Assembly: GCA_937924345.1 (NCBI GenBank)
Contig: CALDTD010000217.1
Coordinates: 1-11,592, forward strand
DNA from: an uncultured Flavobacteriales bacterium
GTDB taxonomy: Bacteria; Bacteroidota; Bacteroidia; Flavobacteriales_D; Parvicellaceae
Length of the DNA: 11,592 bases
Direction of reading: 5' to 3'
Below the pieces are notes generated by a model. The model was not told the DNA's origin. It worked only from the letters and a program-made list of their open reading frames with translations, and ran no database searches. Of the stretch, positions 2,171-9,220 are shown piece after piece. Both the position numbers and the translations under genes were made by a program. Every line of letters starts with the position of its first letter. Position 1 is the stretch's first letter.

Positions 2171-2550
2171 ACCCATTTAAATTAGCAAGCACAGAGTACA
2201 CACCAGAAATAGTCTTAGATTTAGATAACAAAGAACTGTTTTTTCGTGGAGAATGCAGACCTGAAAATGTTTCTACATTTTTTGCTCCTATAGTAGCTTG
2301 GTTTGAAGAGTTAAAAACAGTACCTGTTCCTGAAGGACAAATCTCAGTTGTTTTTAACCTAGATTACTTTAATTCTTCTAGTGCTAAACATATAATGGAT
2401 ATTTTCTTTTTAATTAGCGATATAAATAAAGACTATAATTACCAATTAGAAATAGTTTGGGAATACGACGAAGATGATGAAGATGTATATGACGCAGGGG
2501 TTGAATTTGAAGACCTGAGTGGAGTTAAATTCATATTTAAAGCGCTTTAA
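2167..2550 (+). CDS. siaC: SiaC-family regulatory phosphoprotein (DUF1987)
   Basis: This 127-residue protein is the likely substrate of the kinase encoded just upstream. The family signature is visible: TPEIVLDLDNKELFFRG (12-28), CRPENVSTFFAPI (30-42) and YFNSSSAKHIMDI (67-79). In P. aeruginosa, dephosphorylated SiaC binds and activates the diguanylate cyclase SiaD, and the phospho-site is a threonine within the equivalent of the NSSS segment. Here that segment offers serines at 70-72, so the acceptor would be serine, most likely S70; this alignment is from memory. A very acidic stretch (WEYDEDDEDVYD, 98-109) near the C-terminus is notable. The start ATG overlaps the siaB stop, and the stop overlaps the next start (TAATG at 2548-2552), so expression is probably coupled through all three. 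The downstream target cannot be named, since most Flavobacteriia have little c-di-GMP machinery. Confidence 0.85.
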   Translation: MNPFKLASTEYTPEIVLDLDNKELFFRGECRPENVSTFFAPIVAWFEELKTVPVPEGQISVVFNLDYFNSSSAKHIMDIFFLISDINKDYNYQLEIVWEYDEDDEDVYDAGVEFEDLSGVKFIFKAL

Positions 2551-3119
2551 TGAAATTAAATTCCTCAAAAACGAAATCAAATCTAATTTTTTGGGGAGTA
2601 TTATTTTTTTTGATAGGGTTCCTTTTTTTTACAGAAACAGGAAAAAACACAAAAGACTGGATTAGCTCCTTCACTTTAAGCAAACCGCAGCAAGCTTTAC
2701 TAAAAAATAAAATTAGTATTACTCAAGATTGGTTTTTAGAAAATACAAAAGGAGACAAAAAACGATTACTTGAAAGTAATAAACCATTGTTTATTAATAT
2801 TTGGGCAACATGGTGTCCTCCTTGCAGAAGCGAACTTCCATCTCTATTAGACCTAGCAAACGAATACAAGAACAAAGTTGATTTCCTTTTTATTAGCCCC
2901 AATGAAGACTTAAACACTTTAATAGCATTTGCAAACAAAAAAGGCTATTCATTTCCTTTCTACACACAAAGTAGTGCAATACCTAAAGAATTGGCAACAA
3001 GATCGTTCCCTACTACATTTATAGTGGACAAAGACAAGAAAATAGTCTTAAAGTCTGTTGGAGCCCACGATTGGAATACTAAACCTGTACATCAAATATT
3101 AGAAAGCCTCATAAAATAG
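2550..3119 (+). CDS. Membrane-anchored TlpA/ResA-like thiol-disulfide oxidoreductase
   Basis: This 189-residue thioredoxin-fold protein is anchored by one N-terminal hydrophobic helix (about residues 12-27), after a short basic tail that would stay in the cytoplasm, so the catalytic domain faces the periplasm. The active site is WATWCPPC (85-92), with the CxxC cysteines at 89 and 92. The cis-proline loop is SFPTTFIVD (152-160), proline at 154. CPPC is the motif of the TlpA/ResA branch, which typically reduces disulfides on apocytochrome c or other periplasmic proteins. A long linker (30-60) separates anchor and fold. The start codon overlaps the siaC stop by one base, and pyrD follows after 33 bp. 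Nothing here identifies the substrate, and the pairing with a Sia switch is not explained by known biology. Confidence 0.88.
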   Translation: MKLNSSKTKSNLIFWGVLFFLIGFLFFTETGKNTKDWISSFTLSKPQQALLKNKISITQDWFLENTKGDKKRLLESNKPLFINIWATWCPPCRSELPSLLDLANEYKNKVDFLFISPNEDLNTLIAFANKKGYSFPFYTQSSAIPKELATRSFPTTFIVDKDKKIVLKSVGAHDWNTKPVHQILESLIK

Positions 3120-3152: not shown

Positions 3153-4184
3153 ATGTATAAACTTATAATCCGACCTATTCTTTTTTTGTTTGACCCAGAA
3201 AAAGTTCATTACTTCACTTTTGGATGGATAAAAACAATTACCCCTCTATTTGGTTGGTTAAATCGACTTCTATTTCAAACCGACAACAAAAAACTAGAAA
3301 GAGAGGTCTTTGGAATTAAGTTTAAAAACCCCGTTGGCATTGCTGCAGGATTTGATAAAAACGCCGTTTTGATAGATGAACTTGAAAACTACGGATTTGG
3401 GTTTTTAGAAATAGGAACTGTTACACCTAAACCACAGATTGGCAACCCTAAAAAACGTTTATTTCGCCTAAAAAAAGACAAGGCACTAATTAATAGAATG
3501 GGGTTTAACAATTTAGGCGTTGATGAAGCTGTAAAACAACTAAAAAAAAGAAAAACCAAGCTAATTATTGGTGGAAACATTGGAAAAAACACTGCTACAC
3601 CAAATAAAAATGCGAAAGAAGATTACATCTATAATTTTGAGGCTCTTTATGATCAGGTCGATTACTTTGTCGTAAATGTTAGTTGTCCAAACGTAAAAGA
3701 CCTAACAAAATTACAAGATGTAGATTTTTTAGAAGACTTACTAAACTCACTAAAATTAATCGACTCTAAAAGAAAAAAAAACAAACCCATTTTATTAAAA
3801 ATAGCTCCAGACTTAAATCGACAACAATTAGACGATATTATAGAACTAATAGCTAAAACAAAAATTGCTGGAGTTATAGCTGCGAATACTTCTTCTGGTA
3901 GAGCAAACCTTAAAACAACTTCCGAAGAAATTGAAAAAATTGGAAATGGAGGATTAAGTGGCCAACCTATAAAAGACAATGCAACCGAAGTAATTCGCTA
4001 TTTAGCACAAAAGTCTAACAAAGCTTTTCCTATAATTGGTGTTGGAGGCATACACTCATCCAAAGATGCACTAGAAAAGCTATATGCTGGGGCAGATTTA
4101 ATTCAAGTTTATACGGGGTTTGTCTATGAAGGACCAAGACTTATTAAACAAATTAACACCGCTATTTTAGAACGCGGGCTCTAG
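3153..4184 (+). CDS. pyrD: Class 2 (quinone-type) dihydroorotate dehydrogenase with a cysteine at the catalytic-base position
   Basis: This 343-residue FMN enzyme oxidises dihydroorotate to orotate in pyrimidine synthesis. The N-terminal helical extension ([20 protein letters not shown], 1-20) is the membrane- and quinone-binding module of class 2 enzymes, and menaquinone is the likely acceptor in a flavobacterium. Core motifs are [13 protein letters not shown] (59-71), [20 protein letters not shown] (83-102), NRMGFNN (114-120), NTSSGR (245-250) and the phosphate-binding GVGGI (296-300). The active-site loop reads NVSCPNV (175-181): class 2 enzymes usually have NxSSPNT, with the second serine as base (S175 in E. 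coli, S215 in human). Here C178 takes that place, as in the cytosolic class 1 enzymes (NLSCPN). It may end the siaB operon; I see no convincing terminator in the 144 bp that follow. Confidence 0.93.
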
Positions 4185-4328
4185 TCTACAATAAAATCAC
4201 TAAAAAAAATTAAACTCTTTTATATAATCTGAAACACTGTAAAAGTTATATTAATCATAAATTAAAAGAACTAATAGACTTTTCTTTGTAATATAGCATT
4301 ACTACCCCAGACAATAGTGTACGTAGTA

Positions 4329-4511
4329 ATGAAAATAATTCTCTTTCTCCTATTTTTGATAACCACAGGGTTAACTTTTGGTCAGTCTAGTATTGCTGAA
4401 AGTTCGGAACAAAATATTTATAGTAAAATTGCTATTTTAATCACACTTGCCCTTATTGGCACCTACACCTATATAAAATGGAAAAACGAAGATCCAAGGA
4501 CTGACCCCTAA
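4329..4511 (+). CDS. Small secreted or membrane peptide, 60 residues, unknown function
   Basis: I start this at the ATG at 4329 rather than the in-frame GTG at 4317, because MKIILFLLFL then gives a clean signal peptide. Residues 1-18 form a hydrophobic stretch ending in TFGQ, a typical Flavobacteriia signal-peptidase region with likely cleavage before Q19. A hydrophilic stretch (19-30) is followed by a second hydrophobic segment (about 32-48, KIAILITLALIGTYTYI) and a charged tail (KWKNEDPRTDP). If cleaved, it would be a single-span peptide with its C-terminus in the cytoplasm. I do not recognise a family. It ends 5 bp before the Crp/Fnr regulator gene, so the two are probably co-transcribed. 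The 144-bp gap upstream holds no clear -7 element or terminator. Confidence 0.6.
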   Translation: MKIILFLLFLITTGLTFGQSSIAESSEQNIYSKIAILITLALIGTYTYIKWKNEDPRTDP

Positions 4512-4516
4512 TTAGT

Positions 4517-5080
4517 ATGCAGTTTATTATTGACCACATTGATATTTCAGAACCTTTGGTTGTTCAGTTTTTGACCGACCTTCAAAACCTAATGAAACTC
4601 GAGCACTTTGAAAAAAATCAAAAAATTCATACCGCAGGATCAATTTGTGACAAAATATACTTTCCTCAGAATGGTTTTTTAAGAGCTTATTACTACAAGG
4701 AAGATAAAGATATTACTGCTCATTTCGCTGGAGAAGGGAGCTCAGTTGCTGCAATAGACAGTTTTATTCAGCGTAAAAAAAGTCGTTATAATATTGAAGC
4801 TTTAGAAAAATGTAATGCGTTTACGCTTTCATATCAAGATATTCAAGAACTACTTGCTGCTCATCCTGTTTATGAGAAATATATTCGCTTATTTTTAGAG
4901 CATATTTACATTGAATTAGCTGAACGGATAGAAGACCTCGTATTTAATACTGCCAAGGAAAGATATGAAAAACTGATCTTAAAACAACCCACCCTTTTTC
5001 AGCACGTAAACTTAGGACACATTGCTTCTTATATTGGGATTTCACAAGAAACCCTCAGTAGAATTAGAGCACAAAAGTAG
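4517..5080 (+). CDS. Crp/Fnr-family transcription regulator
   Basis: This 187-residue protein has an N-terminal cyclic-nucleotide-binding-like beta-roll (about residues 20-110), a long dimerisation helix (about 115-150) and a C-terminal helix-turn-helix (about 165-184: VNLGHIASYIGISQETLSRI). The recognition helix reads Q-E-T-L-S-R, giving the E-x-x-S-R pattern (E178, S181, R182) by which FNR contacts TTGA half-sites. CRP instead uses R-E-x-x-x-R. The cysteine cluster that holds the FNR iron-sulfur centre is absent (only C44 and C99), and the canonical cAMP-binding GE..R..A segment is not evident, so the signal is unknown. The protein stops soon after the recognition helix. A perfect palindrome with TTGAC half-sites begins 4 bp after the stop codon and is its most likely operator, placing the two following genes under its control. 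Confidence 0.88.
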   Translation: MQFIIDHIDISEPLVVQFLTDLQNLMKLEHFEKNQKIHTAGSICDKIYFPQNGFLRAYYYKEDKDITAHFAGEGSSVAAIDSFIQRKKSRYNIEALEKCNAFTLSYQDIQELLAAHPVYEKYIRLFLEHIYIELAERIEDLVFNTAKERYEKLILKQPTLFQHVNLGHIASYIGISQETLSRIRAQK

Positions 5081-5083
5081 TTT

Positions 5084-5099
5084 TTTGACATTTGTCAAA
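5084..5099. promoter_or_regulatory. Candidate Crp/Fnr operator, perfect palindrome TTTGACA-TT-TGTCAAA
   Basis: Seven-base arms (5084-5090 and 5093-5099) flank a 2-bp centre. Inside is TTGAC-N4-GTCAA, the half-site length and spacing used by Crp/Fnr proteins (compare FNR TTGAT-N4-ATCAA). It sits between the regulator gene and the gene for the Coq4-like protein. Its centre (5091.5) is about 41 bp before the transcription start inferred from the -7 element at 5121-5128, the position of class II activator sites. Confidence 0.65.
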
Positions 5100-5116
5100 T
5101 AGATTTAAGAATCTAT
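5099..5116. repeat. Second inverted repeat in the promoter spacer
   Basis: ATAGATT (5099-5105) and AATCTAT (5110-5116) are perfect inverted repeats around TAAG. The repeat directly abuts the TTTGACA palindrome and lies upstream of the predicted transcription start, so it is more likely a protein-binding site than an RNA hairpin. It could be chance in AT-rich DNA. Confidence 0.35.
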
Positions 5117-5120
5117 ACTT

Positions 5121-5128
5121 TAGCTTTG
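5121..5128 (+). promoter_or_regulatory. Bacteroidota -7 promoter element TAGCTTTG
   Basis: This is a perfect match to TAnnTTTG, 18 bp before the ATG at 5147. No TTTG lies at the normal spacing of about 19 bp upstream; the nearest (5091-5094, inside the palindrome) is 26 bp away. A good -7 with no -33 element, behind an operator centred near -41, is what an activator-dependent promoter would look like. Confidence 0.5.
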
Positions 5129-5146
5129 TTAGCAAACACAAAAGCT

Positions 5147-5704
5147 ATGAAGAGCAAATCAACACTAAAACAATTACTAGAAGATTTTTATACACAAAAT
5201 GGAATACCAAAAGACGGCGGAGTAGATGACAAAACATTTGTTTTTAGTGTTTTTGGACTTTCTCCAAACTTACCAAACCCAAAATTTAGAAGAGAAGCAC
5301 TTCATATACATGATATTCAACATGTATTAAACAATCAAGATACCTCTTGGAAAGGAGAAGGTTATATAGCTGGCTGGGAAATCTCTACAGGAATGTGGAA
5401 ACACTTTAAACTAGGAGTTATGAGTCTCTGGGCAATGGGTTATAGTCTTTGGATATATCCTAAATCAGTCTTTAAAGGATTCAAAAAAGGGACAAATAAA
5501 ATAGGCGTAATAGATTTGAATAAAAGTAAAGCAGAATTTATGAAAATGGAGTTTGCTGAACTTCTAAGGCTTACAAAAAAAGAGAAATCACTTAATCGTA
5601 ATCTGTTTTTATTGCCTTTATTTATTTTTTGGACTATTGTAAGTCAATTTATTTTTCTTTTCCCTTTGTTAACAATTATTTTGCTAGGATACATCATATT
5701 GTAA
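5147..5704 (+). CDS. Membrane-anchored Coq4-like protein with HDxxH-x11-E zinc motif
   Basis: I start this at the ATG at 5147 (185 residues). The frame reaches back to a TTG at 5126, but that overlaps the -7 promoter element. The key feature is HDIQHV at 55-60 followed by E71: H55-D56-x-x-H59-x11-E71, exactly the zinc-binding pattern of Coq4 proteins. These act in ubiquinone synthesis and are now linked to removal of the C1 carboxyl of the ring. GYIAGWEISTG (72-82) follows, as expected of the family's helical core. The protein ends in a strongly hydrophobic region (about 152-185) that could form one or two membrane helices, which classical Coq4 lacks. Flavobacteriia normally make menaquinone, so a role in ubiquinone synthesis is not expected; another quinone- or lipid-related reaction is possible. 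The next gene starts 26 bp later and is probably co-transcribed. Confidence 0.6.
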   Translation: MKSKSTLKQLLEDFYTQNGIPKDGGVDDKTFVFSVFGLSPNLPNPKFRREALHIHDIQHVLNNQDTSWKGEGYIAGWEISTGMWKHFKLGVMSLWAMGYSLWIYPKSVFKGFKKGTNKIGVIDLNKSKAEFMKMEFAELLRLTKKEKSLNRNLFLLPLFIFWTIVSQFIFLFPLLTIILLGYIIL

Positions 5705-5730
5705 TTAAAGTTTTAGCCTTTGTTAATCTT

Positions 5731-6342
5731 ATGAAAACATTACATTATTTTTCTGGAATCATAATTTCGTGTTTTGTTGTGCTTCACCTATCCAATCATT
5801 TAGCAAGTCTTTGGAGTGAAGAAAGTCACTTAGAGTTCATGAATATTACAAGAAAGCTATATCGAACACCTTTTTTTGAAACCCTACTTATAATTGCAGC
5901 TTTTATACAGATCATATCTGGAATAAGACTTTTAATGAGTAAACAAACTTTAAAAGCAACATTTTTCGAAAGACTAAAACTTTGGACTGGAGGGTATCTA
6001 GCTTTCTTTTTTACAATTCATTTAATAGCTGTATTTACGGGAAGGTTAGTATTAAAGTTAGATACCAACTTTTACTTTGGTACAGCTGGTCTAATTACCT
6101 ATCCATTTAGTTTATTTTTCATTCCTTATTACAGTTTAGCGATTCTTTCTTTTTTTGGACATATAGCAGCTATTCATGCTTTAAAAATGAAAAAAACACT
6201 TTTAAAACTACCTCCTAAAAAACAAGCATACTTAATACTATTAACAGGTTTATTTATAACATTTCTTACCTTTTATGGGTTAACCAATAAATTTAAAGGT
6301 TTTAAGATACCCGAATCGTACCATATTTTAATTGGGAAATAA
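5731..6342 (+). CDS. Histidine-rich five-span membrane protein, possible b-type cytochrome subunit
   Basis: I start this at the ATG at 5731 (203 residues); the frame is open back to 5629, but that would overlap the previous gene. Hydrophobic segments lie at about 7-28, 49-69, 86-106, 120-147 and 165-185. Histidines fall inside or at the ends of helices: H19 and H23 (VLHLSNH), H97 (FTIHLIAVFTGR), H144 and H149 (FGHIAAIH). The LHLSNH start, the RTPFFE loop, a G-x-R-L turn after helix 2 and IHLIAVFTGR in helix 3 recall the succinate dehydrogenase/fumarate reductase cytochrome b subunit fold, which binds haem b through helix histidines and reacts with quinone. No flavoprotein or iron-sulfur subunit gene is adjacent, so it is not a standard Sdh operon. 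The assignment is by resemblance only; a non-haem membrane protein remains possible. Confidence 0.55.
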   Translation: MKTLHYFSGIIISCFVVLHLSNHLASLWSEESHLEFMNITRKLYRTPFFETLLIIAAFIQIISGIRLLMSKQTLKATFFERLKLWTGGYLAFFFTIHLIAVFTGRLVLKLDTNFYFGTAGLITYPFSLFFIPYYSLAILSFFGHIAAIHALKMKKTLLKLPPKKQAYLILLTGLFITFLTFYGLTNKFKGFKIPESYHILIGK

Positions 6343-6439: not shown

Positions 6440-9220
6440 ATGGCTGAAAAAAAACTATTTTTACTCGATGCATTTGCACTTATTTATAGAGCCCATTTTG
6501 CCTTTGCAAAAAACCCAAGAATAAACTCTAAAGGGTTAAACACATCAGCTATTTTGGGATTCACCAATGCAATGCTCGATATTATAAAAAATCAGAAACC
6601 ATCGCACATTGCTGTCGTTTTTGATGCACCTGGAGGGTCTGTAAGAAATGATTATTTTGAGGAATATAAAGCGCATCGCCAAGAAATGCCAGAAGATATT
6701 CGCATTGCAATACCTTATATTATAAAACTGGTCGAAGCATTTAACGTACCAACACTCAGCGCTGCTGGTTTTGAAGCGGACGATGTGATTGGAACATTAG
6801 CTAAAAAAGCAGAAAAAGCAGGTTTCACTACGTATATGATGACCCCAGATAAAGACTTTGCTCAATTAGTTTCGGAAAATATTTTTATGTACAAACCTGC
6901 TCGAATGGGAAAACCAGCTGAAATTTGGGGAGTAAAAGAAGTGCAAGAAAAATTTGAAATAGAAGACCCAATTCAAGTTATCGATATTTTAGGCCTTTGG
7001 GGAGATGCAGCAGATAACATACCTGGAATACCTGGAATTGGAGAAAAAACATCTAAAAAGCTAGTAGCGAAATACGGAAGCGTAGAAGGGCTAATCGCCA
7101 ATACAAACGATCTAAAAGGAAAGCAAAAAGAAAATGTAATCAATTTTGCAGAACAAGGTATTTTATCTAAAAAGCTAGCAACAATATTACTAGACGCGCC
7201 TGTGGAATTAGTAGAAGAAGAACTAATATTAGAAGATCCAAATAAAGAAGCCGTAATGGAATTGTTTGGAGAGCTTGAGTTCCGAACAATGGCAAAAAGA
7301 GTTTTTGGAGAAGAAATTTCAATAAACCAGCAGCAAAACACAGAAGGTCAAATGGATTTATTTGCAGTAGGAAATGCAAACCCAGAAGAAAAAACTGCAG
7401 AAGAGCCGAAGGAAATTAGAACAATAGAAAATACGGAACACGATTATCAACTTGTAGAGTCATTAGCAGATACAAAAACATTAATCAGTAAAATTCAGGC
7501 ACAGAAATTCGTATGTTTTGATACAGAAACATCTAGTTTAGATCCGCTTACTACAACTTTGCTTGGAATCGCTTTTTCTTACAAATCTGGCACTGGACAT
7601 TACCTTTCTTTAGCTACAGAAAGTGAAGAAAAGCTGGCTTTATTACGCCCCTTTTTTAAAAACAAAGGCATTATTAAAATTGCGCACAACTTTAAGTTCG
7701 ATGCTGCAGTACTTTACCAACATTGTATTACAATAGAAGGCGTTAATTTTGACACTATGGTTGCGCATTATTTGCTAGAACCAGACATGAAACACAGTAT
7801 GGATTTCTTAGCAGAAGTTTACCTCAATTACAAACCTGTTTCTATAGAAAGTTTAATTGGTAAGAAAGGAAAAAACCAGAAGAGCATGGCCGATCTTTCT
7901 CCAAGTGAAGTCTATGAATATGCTTGTGAGGATGCAGACGTTACATTTCAACTCTATGAAATCTTAAAGCAAAAAATTGGCACACCGCATTTAATGGATT
8001 TATTCTACAATATGGAAATGCCATTGAATAACGTTTTAATGAAAATGGAAGCACAAGGTATTCGATTAGATACTGAAGCTTTAAATGGTTTTTCGACAGA
8101 AATTGGTGAAACTTTAGTTAATCTAGAAGAGCAAATTATAAAACTAGCTGGAACAGATTTTAATGTAGATTCTCCAAAGCAATTGGGTGCTATTCTATTT
8201 GAAGTTTTAGAGATAGATAAAAAAGCAAAGAAAACTAAGACAGGTCAGTTTAAAACCGACGAACAAACATTAACAAAACTGGTTGGTAAGCATGATATTA
8301 TTCCATTAATTTTAGAATATCGTAAACTAAAGAAGCTAAAATCTACTTATGTAGATGCTCTTCCAGAATTAGTCAACGAAAAATCGAATAGAATACATAC
8401 AACTTACATGCAAACAGTTGCCGCAACTGGACGTTTAAGTTCTAACAATCCTAACTTACAAAACATTCCTATTCGGTCGGAAAAAGGAAAAGAGATTCGT
8501 AGAGCATTTATAGCCAAAGACGAAAATCACGCCTTACTTGCGGCTGATTACTCGCAAATAGAACTAAGAATTATTGCCGCTCTAAGTGGAGACGAAGACA
8601 TGATTCAGGCTTTTAGAACAGGAGAAGATATTCACCGCGCAACAGCCTCAAAAGTTTTCCATGTTTCACCAAAAGAAGTAACACCGGACATGCGTAGTAA
8701 AGCCAAAATGGTAAACTTCGGGATAATTTATGGCATTTCTGCTTTTGGACTTTCACAGCGTTTAAACATACCAAGAAAAGAAGCAAAAGAAATTATCGAC
8801 AGTTATTTTGAGCAGTACCCTAAAATTAAAACCTTTATGGACGGCTCCATTGATTTTGCACGTGCAAACGGATATGTGGAAACAATCAAGCATAGAAGAA
8901 GATACCTAAAAGACATAAATTCTTCTAATGGAATAATGCGTGGATATGCAGAAAGAAATGCTATAAACGCTCCAATACAAGGTTCTGCTGCCGACATTAT
9001 TAAACTGGCAATGATTAATATTGACAAAGCGCTTGCTCAACAGAAATTACAAACAAAAATGCTCTTACAAGTGCACGATGAATTAATTTTTGATTTATAT
9101 AAACCAGAACAAGAAACCGTAATGCAACTGGTAAAAGAAGGAATGGAAAACGCTTTAAAATTCGAAGTCCCACTAACTGTAGAAATGGGAATAGCCGATA
9201 ATTGGTTGGCTGCGCATTAA
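6440..9220 (+). CDS. polA: DNA polymerase I (5'-3' exonuclease, 3'-5' exonuclease, polymerase)
   Basis: This 926-residue, full-length enzyme fills gaps and removes RNA primers during replication and repair. The N-terminal flap/5'-3' exonuclease shows FLLDAFALIYRAH (7-19), EADDVIGTLA (112-121), TPDKDF (135-140) and GDAADNIPGIPGIGEKT (188-204), the metal site and helix-hairpin-helix. A charged, glutamine-rich linker (about 294-335) follows. The proofreading domain is intact by motif: FDTET (360-364, D361 and E363), HNFKFD (416-421) and YACEDAD (494-500). The polymerase domain has motif A ADYSQIELR (702-710, D703), motif B RSKAKMVNFGIIYG (752-765, with K756, F760 and Y764 matching E. coli K758, F762 and Y766) and motif C VHDE (878-881). 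Keeping the proofreading residues is worth noting, since many PolA lineages have lost them. The gene appears monocistronic. Confidence 0.98.
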   Translation: MAEKKLFLLDAFALIYRAHFAFAKNPRINSKGLNTSAILGFTNAMLDIIKNQKPSHIAVVFDAPGGSVRNDYFEEYKAHRQEMPEDIRIAIPYIIKLVEAFNVPTLSAAGFEADDVIGTLAKKAEKAGFTTYMMTPDKDFAQLVSENIFMYKPARMGKPAEIWGVKEVQEKFEIEDPIQVIDILGLWGDAADNIPGIPGIGEKTSKKLVAKYGSVEGLIANTNDLKGKQKENVINFAEQGILSKKLATILLDAPVELVEEELILEDPNKEAVMELFGELEFRTMAKRVFGEEISINQQQNTEGQMDLFAVGNANPEEKTAEEPKEIRTIENTEHDYQLVESLADTKTLISKIQAQKFVCFDTETSSLDPLTTTLLGIAFSYKSGTGHYLSLATESEEKLALLRPFFKNKGIIKIAHNFKFDAAVLYQHCITIEGVNFDTMVAHYLLEPDMKHSMDFLAEVYLNYKPVSIESLIGKKGKNQKSMADLSPSEVYEYACEDADVTFQLYEILKQKIGTPHLMDLFYNMEMPLNNVLMKMEAQGIRLDTEALNGFSTEIGETLVNLEEQIIKLAGTDFNVDSPKQLGAILFEVLEIDKKAKKTKTGQFKTDEQTLTKLVGKHDIIPLILEYRKLKKLKSTYVDALPELVNEKSNRIHTTYMQTVAATGRLSSNNPNLQNIPIRSEKGKEIRRAFIAKDENHALLAADYSQIELRIIAALSGDEDMIQAFRTGEDIHRATASKVFHVSPKEVTPDMRSKAKMVNFGIIYGISAFGLSQRLNIPRKEAKEIIDSYFEQYPKIKTFMDGSIDFARANGYVETIKHRRRYLKDINSSNGIMRGYAERNAINAPIQGSAADIIKLAMINIDKALAQQKLQTKMLLQVHDELIFDLYKPEQETVMQLVKEGMENALKFEVPLTVEMGIADNWLAAH

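Follow-up and report, generated by a model that had tools for sequence, protein, structure and literature searches.

Activators of the CRP/FNR type whose operator is centred at -41.5 occupy the class II position, and in the SdhC/FrdC cytochromes b the haem ligands are assigned to helices I, II, IV and V. The -7 promoter box TAnnTTTG lies at -12 to -5 (PMC9723704). The Coq4 family is defined by the motif HDxxH-x11-E (PMC7615680, PMC9774615). The reaction of COQ4 was assigned only recently, in ubiquinone-making eukaryotes, and zinc-dependent C1 decarboxylation was demonstrated for a reconstructed animal COQ4 (PMC7615680). Structures of the Coq4 homologue Alr8543 contained long lipids: geranylgeranyl monophosphate (in an entry that is now obsolete) and, in 6E12, oleic acid (PMC9774615). 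Finally, a DUF4405 protein binds haem b (PMC11334425).

We analysed a locus in which a gene for a Crp/Fnr-family regulator, a palindrome and genes for two membrane proteins follow one another; it belongs to an 11,592-nt stretch of DNA from an uncultured Flavobacteriales bacterium, the whole of which we call the window (Table 1). An earlier note had described this layout, with both membrane-protein genes on the same strand, and it was recovered when the ORFs, the palindrome and the 26-nt gap were recomputed. With a probability of roughly 0.55, we read the locus as a self-contained regulator-operator-cargo module, where a local class II Crp activator would drive a membrane redox operon acting on a quinone-like lipid or a lipophilic aromatic. 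No description of this module was found in the literature, with most subscription journals outside the coverage of the search.

Table 1. Features of the locus and its flanks (positions in the window)
Feature	Position	Strand	Remarks
Dihydroorotate dehydrogenase gene	3153-4184		upstream of crp
64-codon ORF	4317-4511	+	signal-like N-terminus (ATG at 4329); ends 5 nt before crp
Crp/Fnr-family regulator, 187 aa, 'Coq4-type' Crp clade	4517..5080	+	ORF and Pfam cNMP_binding
Operator palindrome TTTGACATTTGTCAAA	5084..5099	none	core TTGACATTTGTCAA at 5085-5098, the core 4 nt 3' of crp stop
Predicted -7 promoter box TAGCTTTG	5121..5128	+	starts 22 nt past operator core; predicted +1 at 5133
Coq4-fold protein, 185 aa, HDxxH-x11-E, C-terminal membrane helix	5147..5704	+	invariant motif, model, profile match
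Orphan cytochrome b resembling SdhC/FrdC, five spans in 203 aa	5731..6342	+	ATG start; 26 nt 3' of Coq4-like stop
ORF downstream of cytochrome gene	6440-9220	+	presumably DNA polymerase I (polA)

The 64-codon ORF had no Pfam match above cut-off and could be co-transcribed with crp. As for the two membrane-protein genes, no terminator-like site was found between 4150 and 6460, which fits the co-transcription presumed in the earlier note, although this is weak evidence because 0.6 such sites would be expected by chance. There is no FNR-like box between these genes. However, a near-miss -7 box (TAGCCTTTG at 5714-5722, one nucleotide too long) lies in the gap, so the cytochrome gene may have a promoter of its own. 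Further upstream, the window holds a DUF6272 gene followed by a gene for a SiaC-family regulatory phosphoprotein (1604-2550; Pfam 3.4e-32 and 3.3e-28), which we take to be a SiaB/SiaC-like signalling pair; a thioredoxin-like gene (2550-3119) lies directly 3' of this pair.

The regulator possesses a cNMP_binding sensor domain (PF00027, 3.4e-11, 43.4 bits against a cut-off of 27.5), and its C-terminus scored 13.5 bits for the winged helix PF13545, below the cut-off of 27. It ends in an ETLSRIR recognition helix, also present in relatives, and its best solved relative is 3dn7 (3.5e-12). Since Cys44 and Cys99 are its only cysteines, it lacks an FNR-type Fe-S cluster, in agreement with the earlier note. 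In a tree of 43 Crps, which took in none of those with TolC-like cargo, its sister group consists of 22 Crps from Tenacibaculum/Polaribacter-type genomes with operator-bearing Coq4-like genes (support 100/95 for this group of 23 Coq4-type Crps), and a second clade (100/99) comprises six Crps adjoining cytochrome b genes. Cys44 was considered as a specific redox sensor, being present in 23/23 Coq4-type and 0/6 cytochrome-type Crps, and was dropped because several other Crps have it too.

The operator is the sole TTGAY-N4-RTCAA site in the window. When its 16-mer was searched there with up to three mismatches, four matches at three places were obtained against 0.70 expected (at least four occurred in 2 of 200 shuffles), and only the operator itself was exact. 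With TAnnTTTG placed at -12 to -5, its centre is predicted at -41.5. To see this site in relatives, 58 Coq4-like loci were scored: the window, L002 and 56 genome_contigs loci, the 57th of these (L018) being too short. Using a consensus written after the sites were known (the window site had been flagged independently in the earlier note), 13 or 14 of the 14 letters of TTGAYANTTRTCAA, or of its TTGAYAANTRTCAA form, were found within 200 nt upstream at 25 of the 58 loci, 24 of them among the 56 other genome_contigs loci. Each of the remaining 33 had at most 12 letters and lacks a Crp gene directly upstream. In all 25 operator loci, window included, a TAnnTTTG-like box starts exactly 22 nt past the core; 18 of these boxes are perfect, among them the window's, and seven have 5/6 letters. 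The palindromic operator noticed earlier is therefore borne out, with a promoter geometry that relatives conserve. A Crp gene stands directly upstream of the Coq4-like gene in 15/57 loci, about 0.95 to 6.7 kb from it in six, and outside the examined stretch, with the operator still present, in three; the operator is kept without an adjacent crp in nine of 24 loci. In L053 (9998-10534) and L059 (9977-10516), the Coq4-like gene is split into two ORFs behind an intact operator, possibly through decay or sequencing error.

Common descent might explain the shared spacing, with the palindrome being a repressor site or having no role, and the 25 loci are indeed not 25 independent tests, because related sequences share history. 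We regard this as very improbable: the 22-nt register is constant despite differing spacer letters, box letters and cargo, it recurs in Crps of the Coq4-type and cytochrome-type clades and in others besides, and a repressor would not need a fixed distance. Judged from sequence, the Crp probably activates rather than represses, and the regulatory anatomy as a whole is the part of the module reading that we hold with high confidence.

Composite sites (operator, 22 nt, -7 box) numbered 37 in 26 genomes, 23 of which had been picked for having an operator locus (the genome of L042 was not among them), against three for the reversed control. At least one was present in 25 of these genomes; the window's own genome, which is 58% complete, contained the window site only. 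Among the 30 sites examined, 20 precede a Coq4-like gene (one being the window), eight a DUF3995-like membrane protein, one a flavodoxin_2 protein and one an OmpA lipoprotein. The DUF3995-like protein (about 142 aa; one label Pfam-tested at 3.4e-31, the rest assigned by eye) is a second recurrent target, in Tenacibaculum-type genomes (L149, L154, L159, L163, L164, L166, L168 and L169).

The layout is not limited to Coq4-like loci. Among 53 distinct Crp genes with at least 80 nt of downstream sequence, a set biased because many were obtained via Coq4-like genes, TTGAY-N4-RTCAA lies within 75 nt past the stop in 34, compared with 1.06% of 2650 random positions, and TTT occupies the -7 register in 33 of these. 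By subset, the box occurs in 4/11 best-match Crps in related genomes, 7/10 in a family set chosen for similarity to Coq4-type Crps, and all six cytochrome neighbours. It is found with 33/43 Crps having an E[T/N].SR-type recognition helix versus 1/10 others (Fisher p 1.7e-4, kinship ignored). No box was seen past the stop of 19/53 Crp genes, including L139, located before a TolC-like gene. Operator letters fall into dialects: TTGATNNANATCAA in 6/6 cytochrome neighbours, at or just past the crp stop, and also behind the L067 Crp; TTGATNTAGGTCAA in four of five Crps before TolC-like genes, the fifth being L139. In these four (L136, L138, L142 and L143), the Crp gene is followed by the box and then by the efflux gene (labelled by eye), which suggests a Crp-controlled efflux cassette. 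Close kin of the window Crp have an amidase (L135) or an OmpA lipoprotein plus alpha/beta hydrolase (L134) as cargo; no perfect composite site occurs in the genome with the amidase, where the -7 box is one letter off.

We tentatively propose that Bacteroidota harbour a family of portable cassettes, each consisting of a short Crp, its own FNR-like operator (in most cases at the crp stop codon or no more than about 25 nt past it) at -41.5 of a TAnnTTTG promoter, and interchangeable cargo, with dialects TTGAYANTTRTCAA for Coq4-like, TTGATNNANATCAA for cytochrome b and TTGATNTAGGTCAA for TolC-like genes. The window would then combine two cargos habitual to related Crp clades under one operator, giving a menaquinone-making lineage a new system of two membrane proteins that modifies quinones.

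The first of these cargos likely starts at the ATG in Table 1 rather than at TTG 5126, because the -7 box overlaps that TTG and the predicted +1 follows it. Its H55, D56, H59 and E71, which make up HDxxH-x11-E, are invariant in 33/33 aligned proteins, its model (pLDDT 93.6) has a predicted fold matching 6e12 and 3msq, and its profile matches Bacteroidota PF05019 proteins. Metal binding is probable. The claim that this is a Coq4-like protein with a zinc motif stood as regards motif and fold, but not as regards Pfam: Coq4 (PF05019) did not match the window protein and matched five of 33 aligned proteins (best E 0.19). A PDB sequence search with the profile gave nothing meaningful, nor did the model find a significant match by Foldseek alone. 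Using Pfam Coq4, Bacteroidota ORFs of 150-175 aa with HDxxH-x11-E (L127-L132) were also encountered in 6/198 phylum genomes, five above cut-off. No Coq4-like gene was found on phages or plasmids (viral_contigs, plasmids). As the earlier note had supposed, the setting is one of menaquinone: menD was above cut-off in 17/20 genomes searched, and the window's genome, one of the 20, gave only a sub-threshold match at its 58% completeness. In a quick 84-row tree without bootstrap and without the broken L053 and L059, the window protein falls among an operator-less lineage (branch 100% SH-aLRT). Because of this position, the operator linkage needs at least two changes, either gained twice or ancient and then lost; under either history, the tree indicates that the linkage persisted, or was established anew, over a deep division.

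For the second cargo, the model has five helices of membrane-span length and a predicted fold matching the QFR cytochrome, i.e. the class B SdhC/FrdC five-span fold, middling Z being common for helical models. H19 and H97 align with histidines of three SdhC sequences, Gln60 occupies the position of the helix II haem histidine, and the alignment does not extend to H144 and H149; the full set of four haem-binding histidines, one each on helices I, II, IV and V, was not found. The proposed likeness to a quinone-reactive cytochrome b is borne out by the modelled fold and the conserved histidines. In the PDB sequence search, the profile matched M. smegmatis SdhC best, with an E of only 0.094, and Foldseek alone gave no significant match. 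Neither flank is SdhA or SdhB; the flanking genes are the Coq4-like gene and the presumed polA. DUF4405 (PF14358) matched 24/25 aligned proteins at E up to 10 (best 9.5e-6) and did not match the window protein. After three SdhC rows were dropped, the cytochrome gene was located directly 3' of a Crp gene in 5/6 other loci of the order and 1/8 other loci of the phylum (6/14).

A survey of neighbourhoods, suggested in the earlier note, revealed no lasting association of the three genes: a cytochrome gene was found in none of the 57 other Coq4-like stretches (3 to 20.5 kb, some incomplete), and the trio as a conserved operon was rejected. A candidate second trio is represented by P0002 and P0145, which come from one source and each lie on a contig of 3108 bases; the candidate is suggested by this equal length and could be coincidence, contigs equal in size also occurring elsewhere in these lists (908, 983, 1638). 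Crp and the Coq4-like gene might therefore be the true unit, the cytochrome gene lying downstream by chance and having no joint function, all the more so as this gene is elsewhere tied to a different Crp clade and the near-miss box lies in the gap. We nevertheless consider this quite unlikely, since the gene is both rare and the habitual cargo of another Crp clade (6/14 loci), and follows the Coq4-like gene by 26 nt with neither FNR-like box nor terminator-like site between them. In L042 and L048, a flavodoxin_2 gene comes immediately after the Coq4-like gene; such a gene lies about 1.1 kb 3' of the Coq4-like gene in L044, L050 and L052, 3.3 kb 3' of it in the operator-less L045, and behind crp in its place in L092 (two were Pfam-tested, PF02525 1.5e-36 and 2.4e-36). 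A GH3 gene was considered as a partner of crp in Tenacibaculum/Polaribacter and read as vertical synteny, because it keeps close to crp also where the Coq4-like gene has another location, and none was seen in the window.

According to the module reading, the Crp would, on some signal, bind the palindrome just 3' of its own gene and act as class II activator of one promoter, giving a single mRNA for two membrane proteins. The first would be a probably metal-dependent Coq4-fold protein held in the membrane by its C-terminal helix, the second a stand-alone cytochrome b that has one or more bis-histidine haem sites (H19-H97). Their joint target would most likely be a lipophilic molecule of the membrane, quinone-like or aromatic, which they would modify and either re-oxidise or reduce, for example by removal of a ring carboxyl or other substituent, with the cytochrome swapping electrons with the quinone pool. 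That the substrate is a quinone or aromatic falls somewhat short of even odds in our judgement, and the joint action of both proteins is put forward with similar reserve. A quinone-reductase-like flavoprotein (PF02525) within the same regulon speaks for this reading; that the trio is known only at the window and 33/58 Coq4-like loci are without the operator speaks against it. Moreover, Crp control alone does not imply quinone chemistry, because the amidase or OmpA lipoprotein plus hydrolase behind close-kin Crps are not quinone genes. The Crp might instead answer a toxic aromatic, quinone or other electrophile that both proteins dispose of, the cell's own quinone not being the substrate. The same-layout Crps before efflux, amidase, OmpA lipoprotein plus hydrolase and, in L092, NAD(P)H oxidoreductase-like genes would suit such detoxification, as would the patchy spread of the Coq4-like gene (10/399 genomes of the order, own genome included) and of the cytochrome gene (7/399, likewise). 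We find it unlikely, though less so than a chance neighbour, given the long lipids in Alr8543 (PMC9774615), the membrane anchor of the Coq4-like protein and the resemblance of the cytochrome to quinol enzymes.

With its place beside a cytochrome b, its seemingly dedicated control and its occurrence in a lineage that has menaquinone genes, this Coq4-fold protein offers a tractable bacterial case for the role of the fold. If the rule of box, 22 nt and TAnnTTTG is general, direct targets of many uncharacterised Bacteroidota Crps could be read from sequence, because the operator adjoins the regulator gene.

Compared with known systems, the regulator shares the TTGAY-N4-RTCAA site, the E..SR recognition helix and the predicted operator centre at -41.5 with FNR/CRP class II activators, and differs in lacking Fe-S cysteines, in having its operator directly 3' of its own gene and in the small number of sites predicted for each genome (0 to 3). 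The Coq4-like protein has the HDxxH-x11-E spacing of the COQ4/Alr8543 family (PF05019) and a predicted fold like those of Alr8543 (6e12) and a Nostoc punctiforme protein (3msq), whereas its C-terminal membrane helix, the missing Pfam match, the clade with menaquinone genes and the probable Crp control set it apart. With the class B SdhC/FrdC diheme cytochromes b (D. gigas, W. succinogenes QFR), the second protein shares the five-span fold and the histidines of helices I and IV; unlike them, it has no SdhA/SdhB beside it, Gln for the helix II histidine, and further conserved histidines at 5, 23, 33 and 149. Finally, profile matches (E up to 10) link 24/25 of its aligned proteins to the DUF4405, flavinylation-associated cytochromes (PF14358), from which the window protein differs in being unmatched itself and in having no ApbE or flavinylated partner among the scanned window proteins.
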